Shown here piece by piece: positions 84 through 60,201 of a DNA stretch of 64,000 nt. The translations under genes and the position numbers were made by a program. Every line of letters starts with the position of its first letter. Position 1 is the first letter of the stretch. Below the pieces are notes generated by a model. It made no database searches. It was not told where the DNA came from and saw only the letters and a program-made list of their open reading frames with translations. Origin of the DNA: Pseudopyrenochaeta lycopersici (Eukaryota > Ascomycota > Dothideomycetes > Pleosporales > Pseudopyrenochaetaceae). The stretch lies in the NCBI GenBank assembly GCA_003313425.1, contig NHZP01000102.1:1-64000 (forward strand), given 5' to 3'.

Positions 84-377
84 TTACTTACCAGGGCTTT
101 TGCCCCTAGTCTCCAAGGAGCCTAACCCTTCGGTACTCCCTCCAGTCGCGGGCAAAGCTTAGAGTAAAGCCGTCGTGGTCCCGAGCGCAAGGCTCCTGAC
201 CACTTGACAACTTTCTAGTGAAAGGAATCATATATACGCAAAACGCCACACTAGAAAGTTGTCGGAGGGGCCCGTGCCCCAACTCGACCCATGTCTGCGC
301 TCTCTCGAGCCACACCCCCATGTGACCCAGCCTGTCTTCCAGCCACAGGGAAAATGAACTTACGCAATTTTTTTTTT
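84..377 (-). repeat. Structured element E1, left part lost
   Basis: First copy of the unit-boundary element. H1 to H4 are missing because the telomere replaces them. H5 is TAGTCTCC..GGAGCCTA, the H6 cap pair is C-G, H7 sits inside GTGGTC..GACCAC, and H8 has the full CACTAGAAAGTTG right arm at 242-260. It ends in a ten-base T-run at 368-377. Confidence 0.75.
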
Positions 378-592
378 GAGAGTTGGTATTCCATCCCAGG
401 GAGGGCTCACACCATTAACAAATTCAGCCTACGCTACCAACCCATTTACATCCCACACTGTGTACTGTAAACACATCAGAATACAATAACATATAAATAA
501 TACAAATCTGTATACTTCCAACGAGAAGTAGAAAACACGATGCTCCCTACATCAGCATGCGCCCAACCGCAAACACCTACCAGTGTCACATA

Positions 593-1391
593 TCAACATC
601 GTAAGACTCGCTGACGAGGACATGACAGCCAGTCTTCGCCTCCCGGGTGTACTTTTCCTACGGCATCGCTGATCCCAGCAAACCAACCAGACATTTTATC
701 TGGATATACACAAGAAAACGCATCCCAACGTTCAAACCTGGAGTGAACCCCCAACACTTCGCTACACGGCTTGCACACAGCCTGTAAATGGCATTCGCAT
801 AACGAGCCGCTAGAGAGACCCCCCAGGTCCAACAGAACGAACAACATACTAATAAGAGTAGCATCCGCAGCCTGCCCATCCGGCAAGACAATAAGAGGCA
901 GCACCCGCTGCAGAAACACATCGAATGTCTGCACAGAAAGCTTCGCAAACGCAACAAGGCTCCGCACTTCGCCATTCTGGACAACGTCCACCTTTACCAC
1001 AAAGAGTGCGCATCGACAACCATCACTTGCGCAAAACTCCATGTAGTCCTCTAGACAAGATGCGTGTTGTTCGTCCACGCACTGCTGAGGAGGCTTCCCG
1101 CTCTCCTTGGTGCACCACCAACGCACCTCGCCATTGAGTGCAAGGTGGCAGGTAATCGAAACACCGCGTTCTACAAACACTACACCTACGTCAGATGATC
1201 TTGTTTTTAACTTCTACAGTAAAAAGATCAAGACACCTACGGGGCACGTGATCCCTCACAGCCTGAAAAGTATTACCGCTCCACACAGAAGGAACCCCTC
1301 TTTCACCTACACGTAAAGTGTACGGGCAAAATACAACGGATGGTCTACCAACCGTACCTACCAGAAACCTTTGTCCAGGCCGCGACACCAT
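593..1391 (-). CDS. U1: family A protein, two exons
   Basis: Function unknown; this is the telomere-most member of the array's main gene family. Exon 1 is 1391-1241, a 55-nt intron is 1240-1186 (GTAGGT donor, CTGAC close to its GTAG end), and exon 2 is 1185-593, giving about 247 aa. The start is the ATG following GCG, as in other members. Exon 1 ends in V-R-D-H-V-P. Exon 2 shows WWCTKESGKPPQQC, then V-A-F-A-K-L-S-V, a CxCx5CxxC knuckle near residues 180-191 that could bind zinc, and WFAGISDAVG near the C-terminus. No signal peptide or membrane segment is obvious. The splice sites are inferred from sequence and keep the frame. Confidence 0.72.
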
Positions 1392-1493
1392 CGCTATCAC
1401 ATATACTCCCTAGGAACAAGAGAAGAAGACAAGCGCTACACGCTAATGCTACACAAGCACCACATCCATGGATGATATAAAGACAAGAAAAGA

Positions 1494-1502
1494 CTCTTAT
1501 AT
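1494..1502 (-). promoter_or_regulatory. U1 TATA box
   Basis: TATAAGAG on the minus strand, 103 bp before the start codon. Unlike most units it lacks the G/C palindrome just downstream. Confidence 0.6.
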
Positions 1503-1524
1503 GTCCCTCCAGACCTTGCGCAAC

Positions 1525-1929
1525 GCCAAGAGCACCTAGTCCCTAGCAGGCAATGTGGTGCCCCGTCCCTGCGTCCATGTTCATAGACCAATCAGACTGA
1601 CGTTCTGAAAAAGAGTGGGCAAGCAGTGATCATCTGACCCACACAGTCCGTGCTCTGCTTTGCTTACAGGGGACAGCGCCTCTAGGCTTTAAAAAGCCTA
1701 ACCCTTCGGTACTCCCTCCAGTCGTAGGCTCTGCTTACAGTAAAGTGTCAGGGGTCAAGGAGCGCAAGGCTCCTGACCACTTGACAACTTTCTAGTGAAA
1801 GGAATCATATATAGGCGGAACGCCACACTAGAAAGTTGAGGGAGGGTCTGTGCGCTCTCCGCGCCACAGCTAACGTGACTCTGCATCGCCCTCCAGCCAC
1901 AGCAAAATCGGACTTACGCATTTTTTTTT
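1525..1929 (-). repeat. Structured element E2
   Basis: A complete copy and a good reference. H3 is CAGA..TCTG, H4 AAGCAG..CTGCTT, H5 TAGGCTTT..AAAGCCTA, cap pair C-G, H7 AGGAGC..GCTCCT nested in GGTC..GACC, and H8 has an inner GGCG-gaa-CGCC stem. It ends in T9. A further conserved AAGGG..CCCTT hairpin lies beyond the T-run, to about 1970. Confidence 0.8.
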
Positions 1930-2214
1930 GCAGATGGTGTTCCATCCCAAGGGCGCCCACACCCTTCCTGACCAAGCTCCGCACCTCAAATTCTTAGTGC
2001 TTAACAACGCACTACCATTACAATATTCGTACTATTTTCTAACAGAAAAAAAAACTAGAGTACTATACATACTCACAACATAACATAAATAATAGTCATA
2101 GTCAACTTCTGCTGTAAAACAAAAAGTGTTCCATCTTAAGGTACGGCGTTTTCCACGCACATATACTACTCCGTACCCATACGTAAAGACAAAGAACACC
2201 CAACACAACTGTCC

Positions 2215-3002
2215 TTACAAGCAGCAAGTCAACCAGTCTTCTCCTGACGGCTGTATAATGCCTACTGCATCGCTGAGTCCACCAAACCAACCGCTCCATT
2301 CTTCCGGATAAATACCCATAAATTGTTCAACAGACTGAAATCGGGCAAACGCCCACTGTGCCGATGCGCAAGGCTCACATATAATGTCCAAAGTGCACGC
2401 GCAATCCACGACACTACCGTAGTGCCCAATGAACAATGCATCAAACAATGCTTCCACAGCTGACGCGTCCGCCATACGACAACCCGGTGATAGTACCACA
2501 AGCGGTAGAATGCGCTGCACCAACACATCCAGTGCCTCTAAGCAGAGCTGCGCAAACGCAACATGGCTCCGCACCTCCCCATCCGGGTGGAGTGCATCCA
2601 CCTTAAAAACCAAGAGTGACTGTCTTGCGCGCCCCCATGCACAAAGTTCCTTGTGATGCTTTAAACACTCCGTATGTTTCTGAGAAACGCACTGCGGAGG
2701 AGGCTTCCCGCTCTCTTTGGTAATCCACCAAATCCGTCTACCCGAAAACTCCACATGAAACGTGAGAGAAACACCACGTTCCATAAATACTACGTTCATG
2801 TCAGATGGCTCCCCGACTGACATCTACAACGAGAGAAAGAGAAACACTTACTGGGCACGTGATCTCTCACGGATTGCCACTCTATGGGTGTCGAGACATA
2901 CACCATGCAGGAAGTCCCTTCCTCTAACGCTTCTACAACAGAGAATAAATCTGTTGCACAACTAGCCTCCGCGTAAAAAACCTCTCCAGATTGCGATTCC
3001 AT
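2215..3002 (-). CDS. U2: family A protein, two exons
   Basis: Exon 1 is 3002-2852 (151 nt, starting MESQSGE), the intron is 2851-2790 (62 nt, GTAAGT donor, CTGAC branch, GTAG end), and exon 2 is 2789-2215; product about 241 aa. Joining restores V-R-D-H-V-P-I-F-M-E-R-G. Exon 1 carries a conserved E-E-G-T-S-C stretch seen as Q-E-G-S-S-C in U4 and U35. Exon 2 has WWITKESGKPPPQC, RQSLLVFKVD, a CACTLDIICEPC knuckle and WFGGLSDAVG. Exon 1 length is identical in U1, U4 and U35, which supports the model. Function unknown. Confidence 0.78.
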
Positions 3003-3070
3003 CTTAAACGAACGAAAAAAAAAACCCGTAATGTTCAGTCCCTTCAGAACATGCAGCACCTCCATACAAA

Positions 3071-3095
3071 CAGATCCTCTGTTGTGTCTTATATA
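3071..3095 (-). promoter_or_regulatory. U2 TATA box and ACAG..CTGT palindrome
   Basis: TATATAAGAC lies at 3086-3095 on the minus strand. Just downstream is an ACAGA-tcc-TCTGT inverted repeat, which replaces the G/C palindrome used in other units. The same class is seen in U20, U33 and U35. Confidence 0.6.
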
Positions 3096-3114
3096 TCCCT
3101 CTACATTGGTGTAT

Positions 3115-3565
3115 ACCAAGAGTTACTAGTCCCTAGAGAGCAACCAAGTGCACATTCCATGCCTCTACGTCCATAGGCCAATCAGAAAGCTGATTGAAAA
3201 AAGAGTGGGCAAGCAGCGATCATCTGACCCGCACCGTCCGTGCTCTGCTCTGCTTAGTAAGTGCAGCGCCCTAAACTACTCGTAGTTTAACGCTCCGCTG
3301 CCTAGTCCCTAGGCGTGCCCTGCTTAACGGTAAAGTGTCCGTAGTCAGGAGCACAAGGCTCCCGACCACTTGACAACTTTCTAGTGAAAGGAATCATATA
3401 TAGGCGGAACGCCACACTAGAAAGTTGTCGTGGCTGGGGAGTGACCTCCCCGCACACCAAGGAATGCCTGAACGGCATGTACCTCCAGAACCGCGCTAAA
3501 CTGCGCACAGGGCAATTGACAACTTCTTTTTGCGCCACACTCTGTCGTACTTAGCCAAAATTTCT
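3115..3565 (-). repeat. Structured element E3, variant right domain
   Basis: H3 is CAATCAG-aaag-CTGATTG, H5 TAAACTAC..GTAGTTTA, H7 AGGAGC-acaag-GCTCC. After the cap it carries a second CTAG-tcc-CTAG hairpin at 3302-3313, normally found only at H1. Right of H8 the usual domain is replaced by the GTGACCTCCC-type domain also present in E13, E23 and E34. Confidence 0.7.
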
Positions 3566-3760
3566 TTTGAGGGAAAACACCTTACAAAATTTCTTTTGAG
3601 GGAAAACACCTTACAAAAATTCCATGGCAGCACAATGTGGTACATCCAGACACTCCGTACAACACAGAACACAGTGACTACAGAACAACAATCTATTCGT
3701 CTCCTAAAACGCAAGTCCCTATAGTACATTAACAACCGTAAATCAAGAATACAGATGTAT

Positions 3761-4515
3761 CTAGTCTGCTCCACCTTCCACAGCCTCCGCCGTTTGTAAA
3801 TGCGCTGCAACAACCTTACGGTCCACGCGCAGGGTGTGACAGGGACCACAGTCACACAAATCATCCTTACTGTGCCGGGAACCCCGTTTGGCTTTGCCTT
3901 TTCCAAGCCACATATGTCGCAAAGAACACCTTGCACCAGGCGACAAACTGGAAATCGTACCATCGCCGTGTGAGGTAGGTTCGACCACACGAACCATACA
4001 CACTTCCACCTGCATACCGTCCTTGAAGTGAACATAACACAGCTCGTTTTGCGGACCCACGCATATTTGATGCTTATACTGGCTGCACCTACCAGTACGC
4101 CCACTCTTCGTGAACACCGTGCACTACATCGCCATGTTAGCTTTCCTAACCATACAGTCGAAAAGTTTGCCCCCACTGCTCTGTCACTAGAGGCAAAAGA
4201 CATCACTACCTTCTCCAAGTCGCAAAGAAACGGCTCTTTGCCGACATACTTCATCATATCACTGTGCTCCTGCAAATGTCTCTCCCGCAGCTCACGCCTA
4301 GCGGGGCCAGCCTTCCGCGGCAACACAGCCGTGTTGTTGTGCTTGCCGACATGCCTACGACAGGCAACACCTCTACGTTTGCCATCCAACGGTTTGCGGA
4401 ACAAGTCGCTCCACGCCAACACATTACCATGACGACTAGAGGTGCCCACATCGCATCCACTATACATTGCATCCGCATCGTCCCGCATGTCCTTCTTGGA
4501 GGAGCGCTGATTCAT
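3761..4515 (-). CDS. U3: unrelated protein in the gene slot, probably two exons
   Basis: Not recognised, and not visibly family A. Exon 1 starts at the ATG 4515-4513 (MNQRSSKKD) and is rich in basic residues. Exon 2 runs 4123-3761 after a CTAAC branch and GTAG acceptor, and ends with a C-D-C-G-P-C cluster. The donor is ambiguous: GTATGG at 4155 gives a 32-nt intron, and a weaker GTGGGG at 4176 gives 53 nt, closer to the other units. Either keeps phase 0 and yields 233-240 aa, about the family A size. The same frame stays open over a longer stretch, but that reading runs into E3 and is less likely. Confidence 0.5.
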
Positions 4516-4604
4516 GCTACGCAAAAAGACAGTACCTACCAGTGCAACTCCATGCACACGCGGCAAGACAATCCGCGAGAAGGAAAAAGGAGAATAAGAA
4601 AGAG

Positions 4605-4637
4605 AGGGACGGGGAGCCCCCTCCCCTCTTATTATAT
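4605..4637 (-). promoter_or_regulatory. U3 TATA box and G/C palindrome
   Basis: TATAATAAGAG at 4626-4636 with a GGGGAG..CTCCCC inverted repeat directly downstream. Confidence 0.6.
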
Positions 4638-4686
4638 GCCGCACCTCCATGTCGCCATGTGACTTTTGCCCACTTTCCTTGTGTAG

Positions 4687-5103
4687 TGCCAAGAGCACCT
4701 AGTCCCTAGTTGGCAGTGTGGTGCCCATTCCATGCTGTCTATGTTCATAGACCAATCAGATAGATAATCTGAGAAGTGTGGCAACACAATGATCCGATGA
4801 TCATCACGCACAGTCCGTGCGTTGTGTTACTTACAAGGGGCAGCGCCTCTAAACTAATTCTAGTTTAACCCTTCGGTATTCGTTCCACTCACAGGCTCTG
4901 CTTAGAGGTAAAGCCGTCGTGGTCCCGAGCGCAAGGCTCTCGACCACTTGACAACTTTCTAGTGAAAGGAATCATATATACACAAGAAAGTTGACAGAAT
5001 GGGCCCGTGCCCATCACAACCCGTCTGTGCGCAGAACCCGCCACAGCTAACGTGACCCTGCGTGACTGTCAGCCACAGGGAAATTGGACTTAGCCAATTT
5101 TTT
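4687..5103 (-). repeat. Structured element E4
   Basis: H3 is CAGAT..ATCTG. H4 is AACACA..TGTGTT, a full replacement of the AAGCAG..CTGCTT pairing. H5 is TAAACTA..TAGTTTA, cap pair C-G, H7 CCCGAGC..GCTCTCG. H8 has the CACAAGAAAGTTG right arm. Confidence 0.78.
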
Positions 5104-5396
5104 GAAGACTCGATGTTCCATCCTGAGGGCTCCCACCCTTACTAACCAAGCTCCGCCATACAAATTCTTTGTTACTCTTCCTACTGCCGTATAACCCCTA
5201 CATTATAACGTTAGTATATATTAGACTAAATAGTAACTCAATTTTCAAGGAAAATAAATAAAATAAAAGACATATACAACACATACTTGCTATTCAAAAA
5301 TCTACACCCATAACCATAGCTTTAAAGGCGCCACCGGTCCCTTACTAAGACATGACACTGACTGAATACGTCCTCCTATAACAACCTGCCTATTCT

Positions 5397-6181
5397 TCAT
5401 AGCCGGCACGTTAACCACTGCTCTCCTTCCGGCTGCATTATCCCTACTGCATCACTGATCCTAATAAACCAATAAAGCTTTGACACCGGCCTTACAGAAG
5501 AAAATCCTTCTGAACGATTAAACCGCCGTTTTTCATAAGACACTGACTCGCACTCTTTGCAACGCTTATCGAGCTTGCACCCGCAGTCCACGGAAGTTCC
5601 ATAACACCCAAGGTCTAACCCGTAAAACACTGTAGTAACAACAGAGACATCCGCCGTCTTGCCGGAGGGCAATACGAGAAGAGGTAGGACGCGCTGCACA
5701 ACCACCTCCAGTACCTCTACCGAGAGCTTCGCAAAAGTAACATGGCTCCGCACCACCCTATCCTGATGGAGCGCCTCCACCTTGAGGACCAGGAGCGACT
5801 GCCGGGTAACCCCCTCTGCACACAGTTCCTTGTGGTACTGTAAACACTCCGTGTGCTTCTGAGAAACGCATTCGCGAGGAAGCCGTCCACTCTCTTTGGT
5901 CACCCACCAAGATTGTCTCCCCGACAAATCCAAGGAGAGAGTGAGAGAAATACCGCGTTTCATGAATACTGCACTCATGTCAGATAGGCTCCCCTACTGC
6001 CATCGCCAACGACACAAAGAGATCACCTACCCGGCACGTGACCCCTCACTACGTTAAACTCTGCCTCTGTCTCTACCGACACCGCGCAAGAAGATCCTTC
6101 TTGCAGCCCATCTATCGTCGATGGGAGGATAGGGGTGCCAGCGAAACCCGCCTCAGCCTCTTGCCCAGTGTGCGATGCCAT
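5397..6181 (-). CDS. U4: family A protein, two exons
   Basis: Exon 1 is 6181-6031 (starts MASHTGQEAEAG), the intron is 6030-5969 (62 nt, GTAGGT donor, CTGAC branch, GCAG end), exon 2 is 5968-5397; about 240 aa. Exon 1 has LQEGSSC and V-R-G-H-V-P. Exon 2 has W-W-V-T-K-E-S-G-R-L-P, a CGCKLDKRCKEC knuckle and, in place of the usual W-F-x-G, WFIRISDAVG. The whole unit recurs as U31. Function unknown. Confidence 0.78.
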
Positions 6182-6227
6182 CGCAGTGTAGAAAAGATGA
6201 AACTACACAAAGTAGAACACTCCGTGC

Positions 6228-6254
6228 GCGGGGAGGGGGCTCCCCTCTTTTATA
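6228..6254 (-). promoter_or_regulatory. U4 TATA box and G/C palindrome
   Basis: TATAAAAGAG at 6245-6254, followed by GGGGAG-gggg-CTCCCC, which probably spans the transcript start. Confidence 0.65.
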
Positions 6255-6276
6255 TGTCGATGTCTATGCTGTCTTT

Positions 6277-6684
6277 GCCAAGAGACACTAGTCCCTAGCA
6301 GGCAATAATGTGCCCCTTCCATGCTGTCTACGTTCATAGACCAATCACAGTACTGATTGAGAGAAAAGTGGGCAAGCAGTGATCATCTGACCCGCGACGT
6401 CCGTGCTCTGCTTTGCTTACAGGGGCTTTTGCCTCTAGCCTCTAAAGAGCCTAACCCTTCGGTACTCCCTCCAGTCGTGGCAACGCATACAATGTAAAGT
6501 GTCAGGGGTCAAGGAGCGCAAGGCTCCTGACCACTTGACAACTTTCTAGTGAAAGGAATCATATATAGGCAAAACGCCACACTAGAAAGTTGAGTCGGGG
6601 CCCGTGCCCCCCCATGTGCCACATCTCCTGCTGACTCGGCGTGCCCTCCAGCCACACGGAAAATGGACTTACGCATTTTTTTTT
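6277..6684 (-). repeat. Structured element E5
   Basis: H3 pairs CAATCA with TGATTG, H4 AGCAG..CTGCT, H5 TAGCCTCT..AGAGCCTA with one C.C mismatch, cap C-G, H7 AGGAGC..GCTCCT, H8 full arm with GGC..GCC. T9 at its end. Confidence 0.78.
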
Positions 6685-6906
6685 CTTTGGAGATGGTGTT
6701 CCATCCTAAGGATGTGGACGCCCTTCATAACTGAACGACACGCAATACACAACGACAATAATGTACACATTACCATAACACAGTTAAATAAAATAACTCA
6801 TACCTACACTCTGTTACTATAACCTACTATTACATTATACACTGTATAAACGCACCTTGTACTCTTTACGTCTGTACAGCCAAAGAAATTCCATACCAAA
6901 ACGCCA

Positions 6907-7656
6907 TCACATCGTCCTAACAACCCAGACAGGTTTATCAGGGTCCACCTGCGCATCAAAGCTTCGAAGCCGACCGTCGCTACTCCCAGTGCAATCAGGG
7001 CATACTTCATGCATACAACATACACAGAAGGCGCCTCCACGAAAACCGCCACCAACGAGAACATCAACTGCGCGCTCCCACTGCTTACACTCCAAGCAGC
7101 CTCTTACTAAAGGCTCAAAGGCTACGCCCCATTTAGCGCGCCCCAAAATATTGGTCACCACAGCATCCAACGACCGTTGACTAAGCTTAGCATGAAAGAG
7201 AGTCTCCCTGACAGCGCATCCACACCAGGGCCCTCCAAGGACCTGCACAACAATGTGAGACGAGGGACTACGTTCTCCAAAGACGCCTTCGCCTTCAGCA
7301 GTCTCCAAAGCCCGCCACCTGTTCTTCCCCACAGGCCGTAGGGGCAACCGAGTCAACCACCACGTAGCACGGTTTGCGGACACAACGCAGACCAACGACA
7401 CATCCTGTTCCACCAAAGCTGTGTGTCTATCAGTTGGGCTCCCCAACTTCTTCCGTGTCTAGAAAGGATAATAAAAGAGACACTTACCAGGCACGTGATC
7501 TCTCACGAACCGTACTTCGTCAGCGTCCTCCAGCCTGACCACTGCGTCTGGCATAGGCCACGTATTCAGCCAAACAGAAAAGCTTCTCAGCAGTCGCGCC
7601 GCATCCTCGCATGACGTCCTTCGTTCCGAGACCCATTCAGACAACGTCCTCTTCAT
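6907..7656 (-). CDS. U5: divergent family A protein, C-terminally short
   Basis: Exon 1 is 7656-7488 (starts MKRTLSEWVSERR, ends V-R-D-H-V-P), the intron is 7487-7419 (69 nt, GTAAGT donor, CTGAT branch, internal AGTTGGG..CCCAACT hairpin), exon 2 is 7418-6907; about 226 aa. It keeps L-V-E-Q and W-W-L-T but has lost the K-E-S-G core. The knuckle is C-V-C-C-M-H-E-V-C-P-D-C. The protein stops at D-P-D-K-P-V-W-V-V-R-T-M, so the S-D-A-V-G tail is absent. Exact copies occur as U12 and U22, so the change predates the duplications. Confidence 0.7.
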
Positions 7657-7811
7657 AGCTCCGCAATGTTAACAAGAAAAGTGCCTATAGAGACACTCTC
7701 ACGGCTACGATCCACATCAAACCACTTCCGTGTCGCGCGCAAAATGCGTCCCACCAGGAAACAGCATACGCTGCAGTAAGAGAATCCCCCAGGGGAATAG
7801 AGCCCATGCGC

Positions 7812-7835
7812 GGGAGAGGGGGCTCCCCTCTTATA
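7812..7835 (-). promoter_or_regulatory. U5 TATA box and G/C palindrome
   Basis: TATAAGAG at 7828-7835 with a GGGAG..CTCCC inverted repeat downstream. Confidence 0.65.
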
Positions 7836-7854
7836 CATCTCTGTCTTGCGCAAT

Positions 7855-8275
7855 GCCAAGACCACCTAGTCCCTAGCAGGCAATGTGGTGCCCCGTCCCT
7901 GCGTCTACATTCATAGACCAATCAGAATAAAATTCCGAAAAAGAGTGGGCAAACCAAGGTCAAACGACCCGCACCGTCCGTGCTCTGGCTTACTTACAGG
8001 GGCTTATGCCTCTAGTCTTATTCAAGACTAACCCTTCGGTACTCGTTCCACTCGTTGGCAACGCATACGTGTAAAGTGTCGAGGGTCTCCAGCGCAAGGC
8101 TGGTGACCACTTGACAACTTTCTAGTGAAAGGAATCATATATAGGCGGTTCGCCACACTAGAAAGTTGAGTCGGGGCCCGTGCCCCCCCCATGTGCCACA
8201 CCTCCATGTGACTCTGCATCGCCTCCAGCCACAATTCCTGTGGACTTAGCCAAAAAAATTTGGGATTTTTTTTTT
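7855..8275 (-). repeat. Structured element E6
   Basis: H3 is reduced to GAAT..ATTC with an A.C mismatch that becomes G.U on the minus strand. H4 ACCA..TGG, H5 TAGTCTT..AAGACTA, cap C-G, H7 CCAGC..GCTGG, H8 with inner GGCG-gtt-CGCC. The right domain has an AAAAAAATTT insert before the T-run. Confidence 0.75.
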
Positions 8276-8539
8276 CGCACTTACCTTACTGAGCCCAACT
8301 AAATTCATACGACGTCCCCCGTCTACTACCAATACGATACTCTTGCACTACCCTTATTATTATAAGGTATATTCCTAAAAAAATCAAAATAAACTTAAAA
8401 TGTAATCAAATTTAATCATTCTAGAACACTTACTGTATAAGCGCTCACACCCTTATCATGCCAATTCTTAACATCATAGCAAAACTTCGTTTATGTACTG
8501 CATTTCTGTACTACAGCAAAAAAAAGCAAACACTCCCAG

Positions 8540-9335: not shown

Positions 9336-9381
9336 CGCAGTCAACGAGGAGTTGATCAAGGAAAGACACCACCTCCGTGGG

Positions 9382-9403
9382 TGGGAAGCCCTCCCCTCTT
9401 ATA
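9382..9403 (-). promoter_or_regulatory. U6 TATA box
   Basis: TATAAGAG at 9396-9403, with a weaker GGGAAG..CTCCC inverted repeat. Confidence 0.6.
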
Positions 9404-50839: not shown

Positions 50840-50912
50840 CTTGGAGAAGATTCGATGTTCCATCTGAAGGGCTCACACCCTTAACAATATAGCTCCGTAC
50901 CACTCCAGTACA

Positions 50913-51831: not shown

Positions 51832-51961
51832 CCGGGTACGCTACGCGAAAAAGGATTAAAAAAAGTTAAACAATATAGAGCAGTCCCTCTATGACAATTG
51901 TAGCTACCACTACAAAAAGAAAAGCACAAAGTCCCTTACAAGAGTGAAGCACATCCGTGAA

Positions 51962-51987
51962 CACAGCTCCCCTGTTGTAGTTATATA
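51962..51987 (-). promoter_or_regulatory. U33 TATA box and ACAG..CTGT palindrome
   Basis: TATATAAC at 51980-51987, with ACAG-ctccc-CTGT downstream. Confidence 0.6.
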
Positions 51988-52006
51988 GATATCTACCATA
52001 GATGCT

Positions 52007-52453
52007 GCCAAGCGAAACTACTCTATAGCAGGCAGACAACTGCCCACTCCATGCTGTCTATGTTCATAGACCAATCAAAAGCCTGATTGAAATAAAATGC
52101 GGCACAGCAGGGTCAGATGACCCGCACCGTCCGTGCTTCGGCTTGCTTACAGGGGTCTTTACCTCTAAACCCCAAGTGGTTTAACACTTCGTTACTCGCT
52201 CCACTCGCAGGCAAAGCTTAGAGTAAAGTGTCAGGGGTCAAGGAGCGCAAGGCTCCTGACCACTTGACAACTTTCTAGTGAAAGGAATCATATATAGGCT
52301 GCGCCTCACTAGAAATCTTGTCAGCATAGCCACAGTGACCTCCCGCCCACCCACTTCTGGGTGAGGACCATGTACCCCAAAACGACGCTAAATCGCGCAC
52401 AGGGCAATTGACAACTTTTTTTTGCGCCACACTGTGTCGTACTTAGCCAAAAT
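52007..52453 (-). repeat. Structured element E34, variant right domain
   Basis: H1 degenerate (ACTCTATAGC). H3 CAATCA..TGATTG, H5 TAAACC..GGTTTA, cap A-T, H7 AGGAGC..GCTCCT. The right domain has CACCCA-cttc-TGGGTG and a T8 run, as in E13. Confidence 0.74.
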
Positions 52454-52843
52454 TTCTTCGAAAAAATAATGTAAACCCTACACAAAGCAGCCTGCTTAAC
52501 CATGAAGCACTACACTGCAAACACGACCCTACTATTAAGCGCAGTCCACGCAGAGTAATACATGTTACGAATACATACCACTCTGTCGATAAACAAGCAC
52601 AACATAAAATGTTATGGAACAAGTTTCTCTGTACAAACACAGAATGCCCACCGAAGCCCGCAACAACGTCGCTGAAGGATATAAAGTACGAAACGTATAA
52701 GCTTTCCACCACAACCTGGACGGCCAGGGGGCTCTGCGCTTGAATAAAACCACAGCGCAACCAAAGCCGGCCACAGATCCTCGCAAAAATGCCGAAGACA
52801 ACTAACTGCGTGCTCCACACTCGCCGTTAACGTACCACCAAGA
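52454..52843. other. U34 spacer
   Basis: 3' region of U34. Overlapping minus frames (for example 52443-52820) are open but show no family features and no good ATG context; I do not call them. Confidence 0.4.
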
Positions 52844-53401
52844 TCAACACTGTTGAACGAGAGGAAAACCAAAGATGCTCCCGCAAAGCTCCTGCTGCCA
52901 CATCCACAGAGACGTATCCACTGACTGCTCTGCCTCAACAGGGCCGACAACAGCAGGAGCGCGGCCGACAGAACTTACGTACGGCATAACGCTTGCCACA
53001 CAGAACTCAGCGGCAACATTTCCTTCGAGCTTAACAACCCTCTTGCGGTCTACACCGCCAAAATCTACTAACACAACGACATCCATAGGTCGCGCTGCTC
53101 CTCCTACACTGCCATACCACCGACTTCCATCGGGCAACACTGAAGTTATGCACTGCTCCCACTCCAGCTTCGTCTTCAACGATCGAGCTCCGCCCGAATA
53201 CTGCAGGATAAAAAATCGTCGCTTGGGGGCGAACACGCCTCCACCTAATCGTGCAAACAACACAAGACTCGTGTTGAGATGTGGGAGAAAACATCTCTGC
53301 AGCAACACCTTGCCAGCATCACTCCGCGTGTCTGACTCCCCATCAGAATACAGGGCCTCATCGCCCGGCCAACGTGTCCCACCCTCCGTTCCGTGTGCCA
53401 T
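52844..53401 (-). CDS. U34: very remote family A-like protein, single exon
   Basis: ATG at 53401 (MAHGTEGGTRWPG), 185 aa. Alignment by eye puts S-V-L-P-D-G-S-R-W-Y-G-S on the T-C-H-V-x-x-D-G-x-x-x-W-W-x-T segment, V-V-V-L-V-D on L-L-V-F-K-V-D, and F-C-V-A-S-V-M-P-Y-V on V-F-L-Q-R-V-L-P-L. The knuckle and S-D-A-V-G are gone, ending ...P-L-V-Q-Q-C. It may be a remnant fold or a diverged paralogue. The start is the first ATG downstream of TATAATAG. Confidence 0.55.
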   Translation of the reverse strand: MAHGTEGGTRWPGDEALYSDGESDTRSDAGKVLLQRCFLPHLNTSLVLFARLGGGVFAPKRRFFILQYSGGARSLKTKLEWEQCITSVLPDGSRWYGSVGGAARPMDVVVLVDFGGVDRKRVVKLEGNVAAEFCVASVMPYVSSVGRAPAVVGPVEAEQSVDTSLWMWQQELCGSIFGFPLVQQC

Positions 53402-53494
53402 GGCGTATTATACCAATATACGCCTTAAAGAGAGTAAAAAGGCAAACAATTGCCTACAGTTCCTACGTGTCCACGACACAAGGGGCAGGGCCGC

Positions 53495-53502
53495 CTATTA
53501 TA
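53495..53502 (-). promoter_or_regulatory. U34 TATA box, second class
   Basis: TATAATAG; no clear palindrome. Confidence 0.5.
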
Positions 53503-53565
53503 GTGCTCACCGCACTGAATCCGATGACGCTCCACTGCATGGACATCCGTCCAATCATAAAATAT

Positions 53566-53996
53566 GCCAAGAGCACCTAGTCCCTAGTGCGCAACAGAGT
53601 GCTCACTCCATGACTCTACATCCATAGACCAATCAGAAACCCGATTGAGAGGGTGGTGGGGCCAGGTGTGTCTCCCACGTGCCCACAGCAGTCATCTGAC
53701 CCGCACAGTCCGTGCTTTTGTAGGCTTACAAGGGTCTTTACCTCTAAACTACAAGTAGTCTAACCCTTCGGTACTCGCTCCACTCGTTGGCAAAGCTTAC
53801 AGTAAAGCCGTCGTGGTCCCGAGCGCAAGGCTCTCGACCACTTGACAACTTTCTAGTGAAAGGAATCATATATAGGCAAAACGCCACACTAGAAAGTTGA
53901 GGGAGGGTCTGTGCGCGAAATCCGCGCCACACCCAGCTGACCCAACGTGCCCTCCAGCCACAACAAAATTGGACTTAGCCAATTTTTATTTTTTTT
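53566..53996 (-). repeat. Structured element E35, extra arm
   Basis: H3 CAATCAG..CCGATTG and H5 TAAACTAC..GTAGTCTA each have one A.C that is G.U on the minus strand. A variant of the inserted G/C arm follows H3. Cap C-G, H7 CCCGAGC..GCTCTCG, H8 full arm. Confidence 0.76.
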
Positions 53997-54274
53997 CGAC
54001 AGGATTGACGTTCCATCCTGAGGGCTCCCACCCTTACTGACTGACCTCCGCACCACAACTTCTTTAGTGTTCCTGCTTTCTGCGGGGCCTGTACGCTACC
54101 GTTAGTATATCGTAAAATGTACAATGACTTTATTTTGGGGGAAAGAAAATAAACCATATACTGTATAAAATACATACTTGCTGTTACAGGCCGTACTACG
54201 TCCTATCCTACTACTCAACACCTATCTCCATAGATTTGCTAGATATCTGTGTCTTACTCTTCCTATCGCTGTCC

Positions 54275-55060
54275 CTATACACAACTCAGCCAGTCTTCGC
54301 CTTCCGGCTGAACTTCTCCAACAGCGTCACTGATCCCAGCGAACCAGTCAGACCTTCCGAATGGCCATACCTCATAAAATCTATCCAGCCAGTGAAACCT
54401 CGATGAAATCCGTTGCGCACACGCACAAGGCTGACAGATCCTATCGAGAATACATGCGCAGTCCACCCGCGTACTGTAGTACCCTTCCTCTAAAACGTAG
54501 AACAATCTACGTACCGTAACAGAAGAAGCAACCGCAGCTTGCCCACTAGGCAATGCGATAAGCGGCAGTACCCGCTGCAGAAACACATCTAGTGTCTCCA
54601 GAGAGAGGTCCGCAAATGCAACGCGGCTCTGCACTACACCCCTAACCAAGGTATCCACCTTGAAGACCAGGAGAGACTGCCGGATGGGACCCTGTGCACA
54701 GAGTTCCTTATGAGCGTTTAAACACTCCGCGTGCTTCTGAGAAATACACTGTCGAGGGAGCTGCCCGCTCTCCTTGGTCAACCACGCGGATTGTCTCCCC
54801 GACAAATCGAAATAGAGAGTAAGAGATACTCCACGCTCCACCAGCTCTACTACTCCGTCAGTTTGGGAATCCCCAACTACTTCCGTGTCTAGAAGACAAA
54901 GACACTGACTGTGCACGTGATCTCTCACGCGGTGCAGTTCCACAGCTGTCTCTACAGACAATGAACAGGAACTCCCTTCCTGTAACGCATCCACAAGGGA
55001 TAAGAACGTTCTTGCAGCACTAGGACCCGCCATAGTGCCCTGTCCAGAGCGCGACTCCAT
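54275..55060 (-). CDS. U35: family A protein, two exons (intron stop-free)
   Basis: Exon 1 is 55060-54910 (starts MESRSGQG, contains LQEGSSC, ends V-R-D-H-V-H), the intron is 54909-54850 (60 nt, weak GTCAGT donor, CTGAC branch, GTAG end), exon 2 is 54849-54275; about 241 aa. The intron is a multiple of three without stops, so an unspliced product 20 residues longer is possible. Exon 2 has W-L-T-K-E-S-G-Q-L-P, RQSLLVFKVD, knuckle CACILDRICQPC and WFAGISDAVG. Closest relatives appear to be U2 and U4. Confidence 0.78.
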   Translation of the reverse strand: MESRSGQGTMAGPSAARTFLSLVDALQEGSSCSLSVETAVELHRVRDHVHSQCLCLLDTEVVGDSQTDGVVELVERGVSLTLYFDLSGRQSAWLTKESGQLPRQCISQKHAECLNAHKELCAQGPIRQSLLVFKVDTLVRGVVQSRVAFADLSLETLDVFLQRVLPLIALPSGQAAVASSVTVRRLFYVLEEGYYSTRVDCACILDRICQPCACAQRISSRFHWLDRFYEVWPFGRSDWFAGISDAVGEVQPEGEDWLSCV

Positions 55061-55106
55061 CGCAATGTAGTAAAAGAACTACATAGTGTAAAACATGTCC
55101 ATGAAC

Positions 55107-55134
55107 ACAGCAGAGACGCTGTTGTAGTTATATA
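55107..55134 (-). promoter_or_regulatory. U35 TATA box and ACAGC..GCTGT palindrome
   Basis: TATATAAC at 55127-55134. The palindrome ACAGC-agagac-GCTGT has a G-C pair where U2 and U20 have A-T. Confidence 0.62.
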
Positions 55135-55153
55135 CATCTCGGTCTTGCGCACC

Positions 55154-55571
55154 GCCAAGAGAGCCTAGTCCTTACGAGGCAGGGTCCCGCCCATTCCATG
55201 TAGTTATATCCATACACCAATCAGACAACTGATTGATAAAAAGAGTGGCAAAACATGAGTCACCTGACAACATATCCATGTTCTGCTTTGCTTACAGGGG
55301 GCAATGGCAGTAAACTCTAAAGAGTTTAACGCTCCGCTGTTCCCTCCAGTCACGGCCAAAGCCTACGTGTAAAGTGACAAGGGTAAGGAGCGCAAGGCTC
55401 CTGACCACTTGACAACTTTCTAGTGAAAGGAATCATATATAGCACTCGAAAGTTGATTTCTGGTCTGTGCGCGCAGAATCCGCGCCACAGCTGACTCTCC
55501 CGAGCCACAGCCAACCTGACTCGGCGTGCCCCCCCAGCCACAGCAAAAATGGACTTATGCATTTTTTTTTT
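55154..55571 (-). repeat. Structured element E36
   Basis: H3 CAATCAG..CTGATTG, H4 as in E14, H5 TAAACTCT..AGAGTTTA, cap G-C, H7 AGGAGC..GCTCCT, H8 with the CACTCG arm. Ends in T-run to 55571. Confidence 0.77.
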
Positions 55572-55744
55572 CTTTGGAGATGGTGTTCCATCCCAAGGGC
55601 GCTCACACCCAAAATGAAAAATCTTGCGAATACAACATAGGTATTCTACATAATCCAGTCCATCAAAACAGATCGTACACAATGGTAGACCAACTGCACA
55701 ATAAGTCAACCATAAAATAGACATACCCTACAATAATTCCATAC

Positions 55745-56627
55745 CTACGAATACTCCCCTAACAACAGATCCCCACTACGATCATACAACACATCCGTAA
55801 GAGCCCCCAGCTCCCAGTCCTCCATCTCTACAAGACCAAGACCACCCTCTCCTTCATCGCTGTTAAAGGGTTCTGGTGCTAATGACATCCAATCAGCGGA
55901 ATCGTAATCAGAAGCCACACTGTCAGAGTGGCCAGGAAGTACAAAACTACTAGCATAACAACAAAACCCTTCCGGGGGCTCCAGCCAAGCAGGGTCGACA
56001 TAAGCGCATCCACCACCACCGGATCCAAAACCGGACAGTCCCGGGGTTTCCACAATATCCATAGAGGCAGCATTCACTGGCCCGCAACCATCGCCGACAC
56101 TCAACGGCGGGTACTCCCCCGTGAATACAGAGGGATAACATCTCAGTGTATCCGCTCCATACATGAGGCTTCCCATAACAGAGGGAGCAGACAGGCCTTC
56201 TAAATTTCGCACCACGTTATACTCTGCAAGGTCCACCTTGGCACGTAAAAAGCTCTCCACCAAAGCGACTTCTTCGCTCCCACAAGATCTAAGAAACCCC
56301 CACTTCGTGGATATAGTTGACAGACGTTCTAGGAACCACTTCGCGGGCCCTTCGAGCAATTTATCGACCTTCTGTACCTTCGGAACCTGCAAAAACGAAG
56401 GAGTCAGCATTATCATGCTACACAAGCGCCAAACAGAGACCTACTCTGGAGAGACCCGGATCACTACCGGGCTTACGCCTCCGCTTCCCAAGTAAAGCTG
56501 TCCCAGCAGCAACGACAGTAGCAGCGTACAACGCCCCACCTTGCAAACAAGACGTAAACATAGAGCTCCACCGTCCGTCAGCTCCCTGACTCGAAACAAG
56601 TGTGCAGACATTCCATCGTGCATCCAT
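55745..56627 (-). CDS. U36: candidate membrane-anchored protein with acidic tail, two exons
   Basis: Exon 1 is 56627-56445 (starts MDARWNVCTLVSSQG), the intron is 56444-56387 (58 nt, GTAGGT donor, CTGAC branch, GCAG end, phase 0), exon 2 is 56386-55745; about 274 aa. Residues 30-47 (G-G-A-L-Y-A-A-T-V-V-A-A-G-T-A-L-L-G) form one membrane-like segment followed by K-R-R-R-K. The second half is rich in Asp, Glu, Gly and Ser and ends D-L-L-L-G-E-Y-S. Not family A. The acidic tail could be an activation-like or partner-binding region; this is inference only. Confidence 0.6.
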
Positions 56628-56696
56628 AATAAGGCACACTCAAAGAGTGAGGAAAAGAAGAACCTCCGGTGCCACGAGACCCGTGGGAACGAGCAC

Positions 56697-56704
56697 CATT
56701 TATA
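56697..56704 (-). promoter_or_regulatory. U36 TATA box, second class
   Basis: TATAAATG, 70 bp before the start codon, without the G/C palindrome. Confidence 0.58.
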
Positions 56705-56770
56705 CAACGCGCAGACACCGCGCCGCAGTGACACGTCCGTGCACAAGTAAACCAACGCTCCCAACCCAAT

Positions 56771-57139
56771 CGCGCACCTACATCACCTCCGTGCATCCCT
56801 GCATCCACAGGCCAATTAGGTCAGAGACCAAAAATGTGGCAACCCGGAGATCAGATGATCTCGCGCTACGTCCGTGCGCCGGGTTACTTAAGCGTGCATT
56901 GCCCCTAGCCTCTAAAGAGACTAACGCTTCGCTACTCCCTCCAGTCGTAGGCAACGCATACGTGTAAAGTGTCTAGGATCAGAAGCGCAAGGCTCCTGAC
57001 CACTTGACAACTTTCTAGTGAAAGGAATCATATATAGGCTGCGCCACACTAGAAAAGTTGAGTCGTGGCTGAAAAATTTTTCAGCACCCCGGTAAAACGT
57101 GACCTCCAGCCACAACAAAAATGAACTTAGCCATTTTTT
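56771..57139 (-). repeat. Structured element E37, AT-palindrome variant
   Basis: H1 is missing. H3 is GGTC-aga-GACC, H4 AACCCGG..CCGGGTT (seven replaced pairs), H5 TAGCCTCT..AGAGACTA, cap G-C, H7 GAAGC..GCTCC with a minus-strand G.U. GCTGAAAAATTTTTCAGC is at 57068-57085. Confidence 0.76.
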
Positions 57140-57746
57140 CGAGAGGTCTGATGTTCCATCTTCCATCCCAAGGGCTCCCACCCTTAACAATGAAGCTCCG
57201 CACTTCCTAACGTACTATGCCCCACCACAAGCAACGCACGTCTAACGCATAGTACCTCTTACCTAGTTCCTATATAACACAAATTAGTAAAAACACCCAT
57301 GATAGAGACAAAACAAATAGCCTCGCAATTCTAAAAAAAAAAAAAGAACCTACGACATAGATACCATCAACGTATTGTAAAAAAGCAAGTAGGGTAGGAA
57401 ATACCCTAAACACAGAACACAAGGCTACTACCTAGCCTATCAGTAGGGAAATAAAACATTTACAGAAACAAACACTCACGTAATAGACGCTGCCCTAACA
57501 TTATAGCTACGCATTATGAGAAAAACAGTACTACGCACATACTGCATCCTCAAATAGGGAAGAGTAAAGATAACTCTATACGTTACAGGCTACACGACAT
57601 ATGCTTCCCGCAGTACAACCACATATCGTAGAGAACTACGAAGACAGAAACGTCAGTAACATGATACACAAGCCTTCTTAACTTGTCGCAATAGACAAGG
57701 CGGTATACTTACCAAAAAGCCCACACCTTCGGCGCAGCAACCATCC
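57140..57746. other. U37 spacer
   Basis: AT-rich, including an A13 run near 57333-57347; no gene supported. Confidence 0.45.
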
Positions 57747-58314
57747 CTACCCACTGCGTCCACAGTGCGTCCGCTTCCGCAAGTAACTCTCCGAGGCCGA
57801 CCGATCACCAACCCAGCACATCCGTGACAGGCAAGTGCAACAGAGTAAAGCACTCTGTAGGACGCTCACGAAAATCACCCCAAGCGCCTCCAACGCAATC
57901 GAGCTACACTCGACCGATATCGCGGCCTTCCCGCTCTCCAGCACCTTCATCCAGTGTTGTGACTGGGCCTGCGCCTTCCAAACCATTGTTCGCTCCCGCC
58001 GAAGAACGACCATCGTAAAGTATTCCGCTCTGCATCCAGGTCTGCCAACCGGGAGACACGCTCCACGCACCACTCGTGCTTTGCATAAACACCTCTTGGG
58101 GCCGGTTCCACCGTGCGTCCATGTCCAATATGTGCGGCGCACAAGGAATACGATATGCGAGGCTCCGCCGTACAATGAGAAAACGTCCCTTTTCGTTGCA
58201 ATTCTTGCTCAATGCGTCCGCGATGGAAGAGTTAAAGAAGTCTTTGCGATAACCCCGCAACAGACAGAAGCCGCGAGCCTCCGCCAGCCCCGCGGAAAAA
58301 CGGCGGAAAAACAC
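57747..58314 (-). pseudogene. U37: probable broken family A-like gene
   Basis: Two overlapping minus frames together resemble a remote family A protein. Frame 1 (58314-57904) has an N-terminal part with A-R-W-N-R-P but no ATG until deep inside. Frame 2 (58175-57747) carries T-M-V-V-L-R-R-E and K-A-A-I-S-V-E-C-S-S-I-A-L-E-A-L-G-V-I-F-V-S-V-L-Q, which matches the family's A-F-A-K-L-S-V-x-x-L-D-V-F-L-Q-R-V-L. The frames meet near 58010 with no splice site I would trust, and no TATA box is seen upstream. A frameshifted relic is the simplest reading; an unusual intron is the alternative. Confidence 0.45.
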
Positions 58315-58349
58315 CGGTGCCCCGCCTTGATGTCATCCGACCAATAAGC

Positions 58350-58767
58350 ATACCAGTAGATACCTAACCCACGTCCGTGACCCGCTACTAGCTCCCAACG
58401 CTCCCGCTAACAAATCAGACCAAAGATCTGAGAGAGAGTGGGCAACCCTGCGGTCATCTGACTCACACGGTCCGTGCTGCATGTTGCTTACCGGGGCTTT
58501 TGCCATTAAACTACAAGTAGTTTGACGCGTCCGCTGTTCCCTCCAGTCACAGGCAAAGCTTACAGTAAAGCCGTCGTGGTCCCGAGCGCAAGGCTCTCGA
58601 CCACTTGACAACTTTCTAGTGAAAGGAATCATATATACACAAGAAAGTTGACGGAATGGGCCCGTGCCCATCACAACCCGTCTGTGCGCAAAACGCGCCA
58701 CAGCCCCCGTCTGACTCTGCATGGCCTCCAGCCACAGGGAAATCGGACTTAGCCAAAAAATTTGGGG
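58350..58767 (-). repeat. Structured element E38
   Basis: H1 and H2 are lost or diverged. H3 CAGACC..GATCTG (C.A on +, U.G on minus), H4 GCAAC..GTTGC, H5 TAAACTAC..GTAGTTTG, H7 CCCGAGC..GCTCTCG, H8 with the CACAAG arm. It ends in AAAAAATTT without a long T-run. Confidence 0.7.
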
Positions 58768-58991
58768 ACGGAACTAATGCTTCCCCAAAAAATAATCCTG
58801 TTACTATTAGTAAACTTCATTATAATAACGTGAATGCATTCACTTACAGCTAACAAACAAATCTCCGTAGCCTAAATCATAACAAATATAAACTATAAAC
58901 ACAAAAATACACAGTTTAAACAAAATGCACAATACGTACACGAAGAACGGATTTCATCATAGTATAACCCTTACAGAGGACAGTACCCATC

Positions 58992-59654
58992 CTATACATT
59001 GCAACACAACCCGGTTCGGGCCCGTTGCATCATAACCAGCACTCGCTCCGCATCCCAGAGCCCTAACAGTCCTTTACAAGTTGCGAGAGAAAGCATCTCC
59101 CCCAAAGTACAACCACATGTCCACGAACAACTCGGACAAACATCATACTCTTCCTCAGCGGATACCTCCTCAGGCTTACGCTTCCGCTGCCATGCATGAT
59201 TCGAACACTCGCTACGCGTAACTTTGCGAAACGTGCCCACCGCTTCCGTAAGAAATTGCAAGTGCGCCGCATGGTACAGAACACCATCTGCACATTTTGC
59301 ATCCAACCCACTGTCTGCTAGCTGCCTTGCTTGCTCTCGCACATCCCCTACTACTGCATCCGCATCAGAATCGCACGCCAACGCAAGCGACCGCAATTCT
59401 TCCTCTAGAACCGTACACTTCGTGACAAGATCGCCGACCTCCGCAGGCAAAGCACCTCGTTTACCCTTCACACCATCTCCATGGGGGGCGGCAGAAACCA
59501 CGTCACAGTTGCCCTGCAATACAACAGCATTCTTCGTCGCCGTAACCGGACCACTGCTAAACCTCGAATGTACGGCTCCGCTAACAGGAGGCAAGCCGCC
59601 AAACGTGCCCGGCTTCAACGGTGCAAACGTAGCAACACCGATAGGGACGCTCAT
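58992..59654 (-). CDS. U38: unrecognised protein with coiled coil and cysteine cluster
   Basis: ATG at 59654 (MSVPIGVATFAPLKPG), 220 aa, single exon. The first ~60 residues are Gly/Pro/Ala-rich. Residues about 75-120 (E-V-G-D-L-V-T-K-C-T-V-L-E-E-E-L and on) look like an alpha-helical coiled coil. W-Q-R-K-R-K-P is a possible nuclear-import signal. The C-terminal cluster C-P-S-C-S-W-T-C-G-C-T-L contains C-G-C-T-L, the same start as the family A knuckle in U10 and U20. It is the first gene next to the ancient telomere. Function unknown. Confidence 0.58.
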   Translation of the reverse strand: MSVPIGVATFAPLKPGTFGGLPPVSGAVHSRFSSGPVTATKNAVVLQGNCDVVSAAPHGDGVKGKRGALPAEVGDLVTKCTVLEEELRSLALACDSDADAVVGDVREQARQLADSGLDAKCADGVLYHAAHLQFLTEAVGTFRKVTRSECSNHAWQRKRKPEEVSAEEEYDVCPSCSWTCGCTLGEMLSLATCKGLLGLWDAERVLVMMQRARTGLCCNV

Positions 59655-59854
59655 TATACACGCACCTTCCCGGAGCTGACCAAAGAGACACCCTACAACG
59701 CACACCGTGCAAGCGTAGACACGCAATAGAATCCCCACCGGGAAATAACTAACGTTAGAAGCTCCCGTCCACGCTATCCGCAACTAGGTCACTGGGTACA
59801 CCAGTAAGCAAAAAATGCTACTAAAGAAAGAGGTACCCAAACACACTCCATGCG

Positions 59855-59879
59855 CGGGGGAGGGGGCTCCCCTCTTATA
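59855..59879 (-). promoter_or_regulatory. U38 TATA box and G/C palindrome
   Basis: TATAAGAG at 59872-59879, followed by GGGGAG..CTCCCC. Confidence 0.65.
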
Positions 59880-59898
59880 CCTCTCTGTCTTGCGCACC

Positions 59899-60201
59899 GC
59901 CGAGATAGTCTAGTCCCTAGCAGGCAACGGAGTGCCTAGTCCCTGCGTCCATGTTCATAGCCCAATCAAAGTACTGATTGAGGACGGAGTGGGGGCAGGA
60001 GTGCCACCCACGTGCCCACTACGATCAGATGATCTCGCGCTACGTCCGTGCGCTAGCGGGCTTACTAGTGCATTGCCTCTAAACTAATTCTAGTTTAACA
60101 CTTCGTTGTTCCCTCCAGTCACAGGCAAAGCTTACGATGTAAAGTGTCCAGGGTAGGCAGCGCGAGGCTGCCGACCACTTGACAACTTTCTAGTGAAAGG
60201 A
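59899..60201 (-). repeat. Structured element E39, truncated in the H8 loop
   Basis: H1 to H7 are complete: H3 CAATCA..TGATTG, extra arm, H5 TAAACTA..TAGTTTA, cap A-T, H7 GGCAGC-gcgag-GCTGCC. The H8 left arm is whole, but the copy stops in the loop after GTGAAAGGA, where telomere repeats begin. Confidence 0.85.

Follow-up and report, generated by a model that had tools for sequence, protein, structure and literature searches.

A telomeric array of near-constant 1.58-kb units in Pseudopyrenochaeta lycopersici that probably derives from a many-segmented single-stranded DNA virus

An array of one-size units at a chromosome end

The stretch of DNA analysed here, called the window throughout, consists of positions 1-64,000 of contig NHZP01000102.1 of the fungus Pseudopyrenochaeta lycopersici, whose genome totals 62.7 Mb in 188 contigs. 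Terminal telomere repeats, (CCCTAA)n, occupy its first bases (1-84, plus strand) and are followed by the subject of this report, an array of 38 complete units, or segments, and one truncated unit (85-60,202, minus strand). The array ends inwards at a telomeric stub, CCCTAACCCTAACCCT (60,203-60,218, plus strand), which is joined to an origin-like sequence with a cut position that is ambiguous by two bases, and beyond it lies an AT-rich chromosomal flank with a dinucleotide bias like that of repeat-induced point mutation (RIP) (60,219-64,000). The main genes are oriented towards the telomere, with 35 of the 42 open reading frames (ORFs) of at least 100 amino acids in the window on the minus strand.

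A hairpin sequence that occurs 39 times between positions 202 and 60,177 marks the unit boundaries (first hairpin at 205-261, minus strand; the joining site in its loop reads TATGATT^CC when taken on the gene strand). It defines 38 intervals of 1,556-1,601 bp, a chance partial match at 56,317 being excluded from the count. The genome contains 795 matches (484 + 311) to the 33-base hairpin sequence with up to two mismatches, and 140 complete units, in six contigs including the window, were read out of roughly 795; two others, on contigs C65 and C61, are split into 1,010 and 558 bp by an internal look-alike of the origin and were dropped before this count. The 140 units have a median length of 1,578 bp (1st to 99th percentile, 1,544-1,605), and a single one is truncated (1,319 bp, with about 260 bp missing), internal to the array of C65. 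Taken by segment type, of which there are 69, the length averages 1,579 bp with a standard deviation of 10.8 bp and a range of 1,556-1,609, while the longest sense ORF, taken from one unit per type, varies from 117 to 1,194 nucleotides and is uncorrelated with unit length (r=0.08). The tight length of the types and this lack of correlation indicate that the combination of a constant size with a free gene content, which the first-pass annotation had pointed out, is real, and the same size constraint is found in all six contigs of this genome. The 38 single-gene units of that annotation are indeed units of one size, but they represent only 26 types rather than 38 different genes, and its description of the genes as often unrelated has to be qualified, since 30 of the 55 types with an ORF of at least 90 amino acids belong to one paralogous family.

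All units of the window lie on the minus strand. ORFs of the TKESG family are found in unit 1 (type t18, 228-1,804; ORF 593-1,042), unit 2 (t19, 1,805-3,393; ORF 2,215-2,823), unit 4 (t21, 4,972-6,558; ORF 5,397-5,978), unit 6 (t39, 8,135-9,705; ORF 8,540-9,109), unit 20 (t40, 30,191-31,751; ORF 30,515-31,369), unit 33 (t27, 50,697-52,287; ORF 50,913-51,518) and unit 35 (t28, 53,866-55,432; ORF 54,275-55,060). Orphan ORFs are carried by unit 3 (t20, 3,394-4,971; ORF 3,496-4,650), unit 21 (t26, 31,752-33,323; ORF 32,360-32,944), unit 34 (t14, 52,288-53,865; ORF 52,844-53,401, minus strand), unit 36 (t8, 55,433-57,027; ORF 55,745-56,416) and unit 38 (t41, 58,629-60,202; ORF 58,992-59,654), the last of which has a 32-base tag present at 11 exact places in the genome. 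Further ORFs are located in unit 8 (t11, 11,287-12,855; ORF 12,203-12,574), unit 9 (t22, 12,856-14,447; ORF 13,173-13,526), unit 10 (t0, 14,448-16,003; ORF 14,744-15,181; 32-base tag at 13 exact places in the genome), unit 11 (t5, 16,004-17,588; ORF 16,271-16,723), unit 30 (t13, 45,926-47,517; ORF 46,405-46,839), unit 31 (of the same type as unit 4, t21, 47,518-49,104; ORF 47,943-48,524) and unit 32 (t13 again, as unit 30, 49,105-50,696; ORF 49,584-50,018). Unit 5 (t3) spans 6,559-8,134, unit 7 (t4, 9,706-11,286) has no ORF of at least 60 amino acids, and the longest sense ORF of unit 37 (t29, 57,028-58,628) has 88.

The remaining units form a duplicated block. Units 12-19 (t3, t23, t11, t6, t12, t24, t25 and t7; 17,589-30,190; ORFs 21,647-22,018, 22,757-23,413, 25,890-26,522, 27,503-28,291 and 28,937-29,548) are repeated as units 22-29 (33,324-45,925; ORFs 37,382-37,753, 38,492-39,148, 41,625-42,257, 43,238-44,026 and 44,672-45,283), and the two copies show no difference, as would follow from a recent duplication or an assembly error. 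In unit 34, a 250-amino-acid ORF on the plus strand (52,875-53,627) overlaps the 185-amino-acid ORF on the minus strand, and either could be the gene. In some units with short ORFs, the beginning of the gene may be a splice acceptor instead of an ATG, as judged by eye from a CTGTAG in unit 1 (593-1,250); some unit genes may thus be spliced, as has been proposed for the Rep of BcssDV1, a single-stranded DNA (ssDNA) virus of a fungus. In the AT-rich flank, a perfect 41-bp tandem duplication is located at 61,264-61,349.

Segment types, joints and telomeric ends

The number of types among the 140 units depends little on the identity threshold (67-70 types at 80-98%), the types being discrete, with no gradient of identity, and of 120 pairs of units of the same type, 104 show no difference over their whole length. 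Type t28 (unit 35) illustrates this: among the 40 of 776 candidates that were scored, at least nine copies match at 100% over 1,401 bases and one partial copy at 99%, and its paralogous segments appear at separate steps of 74, 73 and 71%. The order of the types is random, with one repeated neighbour pair among 123, against 1.06 +/- 1.03 expected from 2,000 shuffles (second block copy removed). An equal-frequency fit to 132 units, from which the eight units of the second block copy were excluded, puts the total number of types at about 89, within a range of about 80-105 (sum of squares 340 against 326 +/- 20), and the genome copy counts of six segments are at least 9, 8, 11, 13, 14 and 9. Mostly identical parts that are randomly ordered and similarly abundant suggest that their source was a pool of free segments.

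An ordinary subtelomeric gene-family array, shaped by unequal crossing-over and gene conversion, would be in keeping with the duplicated block of eight units and with the 30 paralogues among the ORF-bearing types. It is contradicted, however, by a random neighbour order between arrays whose segments are mostly identical, and by discrete types without a gradient, and it would leave unexplained both the Rep gene described below and the telomere repeats found at the origin, so that we regard it as very improbable. A host gene array with one shared regulatory box was likewise considered and rejected, the box lying at the physical joint with telomere repeats. Homologous exchange is also disfavoured as the main joining route, because the type-specific end sequences stay with the core of the segment (the first 150 bases travel with it in 115 of 120 pairs, the last 150 in 108 of 120), although it can explain the duplicated block. 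Strong selection on register, one of the causes put forward in the first-pass annotation, does not find favour either, because the unit order is random and the register is fixed by the joining site itself.

Unit boundaries coincide with hairpins whose folding energy (median -13.8) is well below that of 300 random stretches (median -6.9; 5% reach -13.8), and nearly all joints are placed, with an ambiguity of two bases, at TATGATT^CC, a putative nick site in the hairpin loop, as would be expected of an origin of the type found in circular Rep-encoding single-stranded (CRESS) DNA viruses. We take this site to be comparable to the nick site of geminiviruses. All 140 units begin with TTCCTTTCA on the gene strand, which is partly by construction, since this motif, with a tolerance of three substitutions, served to delimit the units. 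The sequence TATATGA, which was not used for cutting, is found at the end of 138 of the 140, and the unit end followed by CCCTAACCCTAA is exact at 32 of 32 genome places, two mismatches being permitted. Joints between units are direct in 139 of 143 cases, and in the other four the joining point is occupied by TTAGGG repeats, one to three in number and in one case slightly trimmed; a further joint, in C23, has four telomere repeats. At ten inner array ends the joint is followed by one to three telomere repeats and then by non-array sequence, with a variant in C4 that has an extra C. Array size varies between about one unit in C10 and about 70 in C65, and the orientation of the units is uniform in the pieces read.

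With ..GGGTT on the telomere strand and TATGATT in the unit, the cut can be placed after TT. Since the main genes read telomere-ward, the G-strand of the telomere is connected by its 3' end to the 5' end of the unit; as far as the sequence tells, this polarity is that expected of an HUH Rep and opposite to that of target-primed reverse transcription. It bears directly on telomeric non-LTR (long terminal repeat) retrotransposons such as MoTeR or FoTeR, inserted head-to-tail in telomere repeats, which deserve consideration on account of their fungal telomeric arrays, the TTAGGG between some units and the truncated tips capped by telomere repeats. According to the parts of the MoTeR description consulted, the 5' end of MoTeR always lies towards the chromosome end, TTAGGG tracts separate the elements of an array, there are two element types, and MoTeR1 encodes a reverse transcriptase (PMC7367193). 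In the arrays studied here the genes read in the opposite orientation, the great majority of joints are devoid of TTAGGG, and no reverse transcriptase family was found in a Pfam search (E up to 0.01) with one ORF from each of 55 types. A retrotransposon origin is therefore as improbable as that of an ordinary gene family.

The outer ends of some arrays are cut. In the window, the telomere begins inside the outermost unit, of which the origin-proximal 143 bases remain (85-227, minus strand), and this junction is unique in the genome with up to three mismatches allowed; the tips of C65 and C89 are both cut inside the gene of a capsid-like protein, at the same base (..CCTGG/TTAGGG). Such ends look as they would after telomerase healing. 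The base shared by C65 and C89 could reflect either common descent of the tips or a preferred seed for telomerase. A telomere-capped end whose first 10 kb contain no unit (C17:1-10000) implies that not every telomere carries an array. On C101 (24500-26300, base about 1217-1300), two units stand head-to-head with the origin hairpin between them, an arrangement that replication folding back through the hairpin might leave.

It could also be the case that reads of a free multi-segment replicon were misjoined onto contig ends during assembly. The 301-kb contig C61, in which the units extend between about 1 kb and 283 kb and which has no telomere at its start, would agree with such an artefact, as would the ends of C4 and C10, which also lack a telomere, and the involvement of the C4 end in six of the 16 same-type pairs that are not identical. 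Against it, telomeric stubs connect the arrays with flanks of other sequence at ten contig ends, several arrays are telomere-capped, one orientation is kept throughout the pieces read, though C101 has an inversion, and library chimeras would not join at a single base. An artefact is thus improbable, if less so than the two explanations discussed before; it would affect the telomeric form and not the segments, so that it overlaps with a viral origin and the respective probabilities need not sum to one.

In base composition, the flank of the window is strongly RIP-like (TA/AT 1.74; (CA+TG)/(AC+GT) 0.15) whereas the array is not (1.10 and 1.05). The lack of RIP marks in arrays that are repetitive and have RIP-like flanks suggests that they are recent or that no sexual cycle has taken place since their formation. 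On the gene strand, the AT-rich spacer of the units is poor in C and rich in T (C 0.11, G 0.26, T 0.37, A 0.26), a skew that would fit C-to-T change on an exposed single strand.

Encoded proteins

Elsewhere in this genome, arrays include a unit with an ORF of 392 amino acids in which VTW, HYH, YCFK, a Walker A motif (GPSRLGKT), a Walker B motif and a motif C (VTCN) could be recognized by eye, in this order. We take these to be HUH motifs I-III and the motifs of a superfamily 3 helicase, the combination that defines the Rep of CRESS-DNA viruses. In Pfam, the whole protein matched Gemini_AL1_M (E 8.7e-4), REP_ORF2-G2P (1.5e-3) and Gemini_AL1 (0.026), and pieces of it matched the same families somewhat better (4.3e-4, 1.3e-4 and 3.7e-3, respectively); these three HUH or gemini Rep families were the only matches up to E 0.03. 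The weak matches to Gemini_AL1_M and Gemini_AL1, with scores below the curated cut-offs, point tentatively towards the Genomoviridae branch. Nine full-length copies of the Rep gene with 100% identity are present in the genome, together with partial and broken ones. A nuclease-only paralogue of 187 amino acids, without helicase, is 47% identical to Rep over 120 amino acids and matches REP_ORF2-G2P (1.4e-4) and Gemini_AL1 (0.018) on its own; it is found in three places (C92, L049:260-820; C119; C131) and recalls the split Rep forms of other ssDNA viruses.

A second protein, of 353 amino acids and with a strongly basic N-terminus, is read as a putative capsid protein; its gene has eight full-length copies with 100% identity in the genome and two that are cut by telomeres. 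A Rad52 domain gene is carried by one segment (L023:8-853; 282 amino acids; E 7e-28), perhaps taken from a host, and could drive annealing between segments or arrays. Another segment encodes a weak F-box-like domain (E 7e-4). In the Pfam search of the 55 ORFs, Rep, Rad52 and F-box were the only families detected. The ten proteins of the window that were searched had no match better than E 0.043 in Pfam or PHROGs, a PDB sequence search was likewise fruitless, and the NCBIfam profiles gave nothing useful. An F-box link for the TKESG family was discarded as too weak, resting on a single protein with a weak F-box match, and an AlphaFold model of this family (mean pLDDT 45) was not used. Among 165 pairs of paralogues, the 15 closest have ratios of nonsynonymous to synonymous substitution rates (dN/dS) of 0.20-0.49, and the corresponding median ratio of proportions (pN/pS) over the 165 is 0.54, values from which the paralogous genes are judged to be under purifying selection.

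A Rep that would act on the joining site need not belong to a virus. In a non-viral, telomere-targeted HUH Rep transposon, Helitron-like or new, the basic protein would not be a capsid protein and the size would be set by circle replication alone; neither Rep, precise origin joints nor telomere targeting requires a capsid, and the capsid-like protein is without a detectable relative. It is the strongest competitor of a viral origin, but still an unlikely one. Unit size is constant to 0.7% over the 69 types, and we know of no transposons of such constant size; a segment-like set of identical parts would be odd for a transposon, and the layout matches that of BcssDV1, with one gene per circle of 1.6-1.7 kb, common regions, and separate segments for Rep and capsid protein. 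Helitrons in particular are defined by a RepHel protein with a long helicase and by an AT target site, whereas the Rep found here has 392 amino acids and, by motif, a short superfamily 3-type helicase, and the units are joined to telomere repeats.

Interpretation and comparison with known systems

Taken together, these results make it very probable that one genomovirus-like (CRESS-DNA) virus or viral replicon, with many different segments of circular ssDNA, gave rise to the array as a provirus-like concatemer. Segments of this kind, limited in size, would be expected to leave as their trace mostly identical copies, random order and precise joints, as found. The physical size limit suggested in the first-pass annotation (encapsidation, circle size or replication) gains support in this way from the Rep and capsid-like genes in the arrays, the boundaries at origin hairpins and the discrete segments; packaging is the limit that we infer.

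Several observations weigh against such an origin. The segments are known here from integrated copies in the assembly alone, with no free circle, and their estimated number is far above that of the described multisegmented ssDNA viruses found. Among the same-type pairs, 16 of 120 are not identical: the first complete unit of C61 takes part in four of them, the end of C4 in six and the truncated unit in two, and of the rest two differ only by an N introduced in the analysis and two by a small number of bases close to the joint. In 14 of the 69 types there is no sense ORF as long as 90 amino acids, the joint in C101 is inverted, and the origin-proximal 250 bases show a weak strand skew (GC skew 0.07). 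All Pfam scores of Rep are under the curated cut-offs, its best PDB sequence match reaches only E 0.15, and the capsid-like protein has no match in either Pfam or PDB sequences; none of the four proteins (Rep, capsid-like, Rad52 and F-box) finds a match in the array of the window itself. A six-frame search of the genome with Gemini_AL1 gave no match and was uninformative, the controls being silent too, and no relative was found in IMG/VR, where the scans reach close relatives only.

Beyond the viral nature of the segments, we consider it probable, with less confidence, that they belong to one ssDNA virus of about 80-105 one-gene segments (about 140 kb), which persists by Rep-mediated joining to telomere ends, where GGGTT imitates the origin end GATT, and that many chromosome ends have been built, and maybe lengthened, in this way. 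The sequence itself shows the constancy of size, the precision of the joints, the orientation, the random order, the Rep in arrays of this genome, and the telomere repeats at the joining site; the mechanism built on these is a proposal. Each segment of about 1.58 kb would usually consist of one main gene and a common region with the origin hairpin, and would replicate as a rolling circle, its size being held by the replicating, packaged circle. Rep would nick at TT^CC and stay attached to the 5' CC end, which would then be joined to a 3' end in TT, either that of another segment (TATGATT) or that of the telomere G-strand (..GGGTT). The likeness of GGGTT to GATT would thus target the segments to telomeres and add them in a fixed orientation, and telomerase could extend the new TATGATT-3' end with AGGGTT. 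Repeated joining would make the array grow outwards, homologous exchange, perhaps aided by the captured Rad52, would later duplicate blocks, and truncated tips would be healed by telomerase.

If the estimate of about 89 segments is true, it would change ideas on how many pieces a virus keeps together and why, the sampled segments being present in similar numbers. Viral integration by joining to telomere repeats precisely at the origin would be a new and easily tested route, in which telomeres are built with viral DNA and a viral Rep instead of reverse transcription. This proposal would also account for a striking subtelomere layout that could pass for a family of host genes, and it offers for study a large set of constrained orphan genes, including one family with dozens of members.

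Among known systems, nanoviruses share with these arrays one gene per similar-sized ssDNA circle, a common stem-loop and an F-box protein, Clink, but they have 6-8 segments of about 1 kb and plant hosts, and are not known to integrate into telomeres. CRESS-like endogenous viral elements in fungal genomes encode Reps near those of Genomoviridae and Geminiviridae, and the parts of their description consulted mention no multi-segment array, nor, in the main text, telomeres (PMC6186406). Fusarium graminearum gemytripvirus 1 (FgGMTV1) is a multisegmented fungal genomovirus with circular ssDNA, and in having several such segments resembles the genomovirus-like virus proposed here; it has three segments, and telomeric arrays are not mentioned in what was available of its description. 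In the open-access literature, represented mostly by titles and abstracts, we found no description of telomeric arrays of this kind or of an integrated ssDNA virus with many segments, and the multisegmented fungal ssDNA viruses found have three and four segments.

The closest published layout is that of BcssDV1, with one gene per similar-sized circle, a common region and an origin stem-loop, the likeness being drawn from the consulted parts of its description. It consists of four circular segments of 1,669-1,707 nucleotides with one ORF each and a G+C content of 46-49%, which share long and short common regions, and its stem-loop origin is nicked after TT, at TACTCTT^CA in three of the four (PMC10731770). 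Its Rep has 321 or 380 amino acids, the protein assigned as capsid protein has 327, and two segments encode proteins of unknown function (PMC10731770). The joining site TATGATT^CC resembles this nick site, and the units analysed here are likewise of equal size (1,556-1,609 bp), with a common region and, in 55 of the 69 types, an ORF of at least 90 amino acids, as in multisegmented genomoviruses. On the other hand, BcssDV1 was described from particles, and the description, as far as consulted, mentions no telomeres and no Rad52 or F-box protein (PMC10731770), whereas the concatemers reported here are telomeric and known from an assembly. The novelty therefore lies in a joining route that we have not seen described and in the unusually large step in segment number, from four in BcssDV1 to an estimated 89 or so, while the layout itself is that of BcssDV1.

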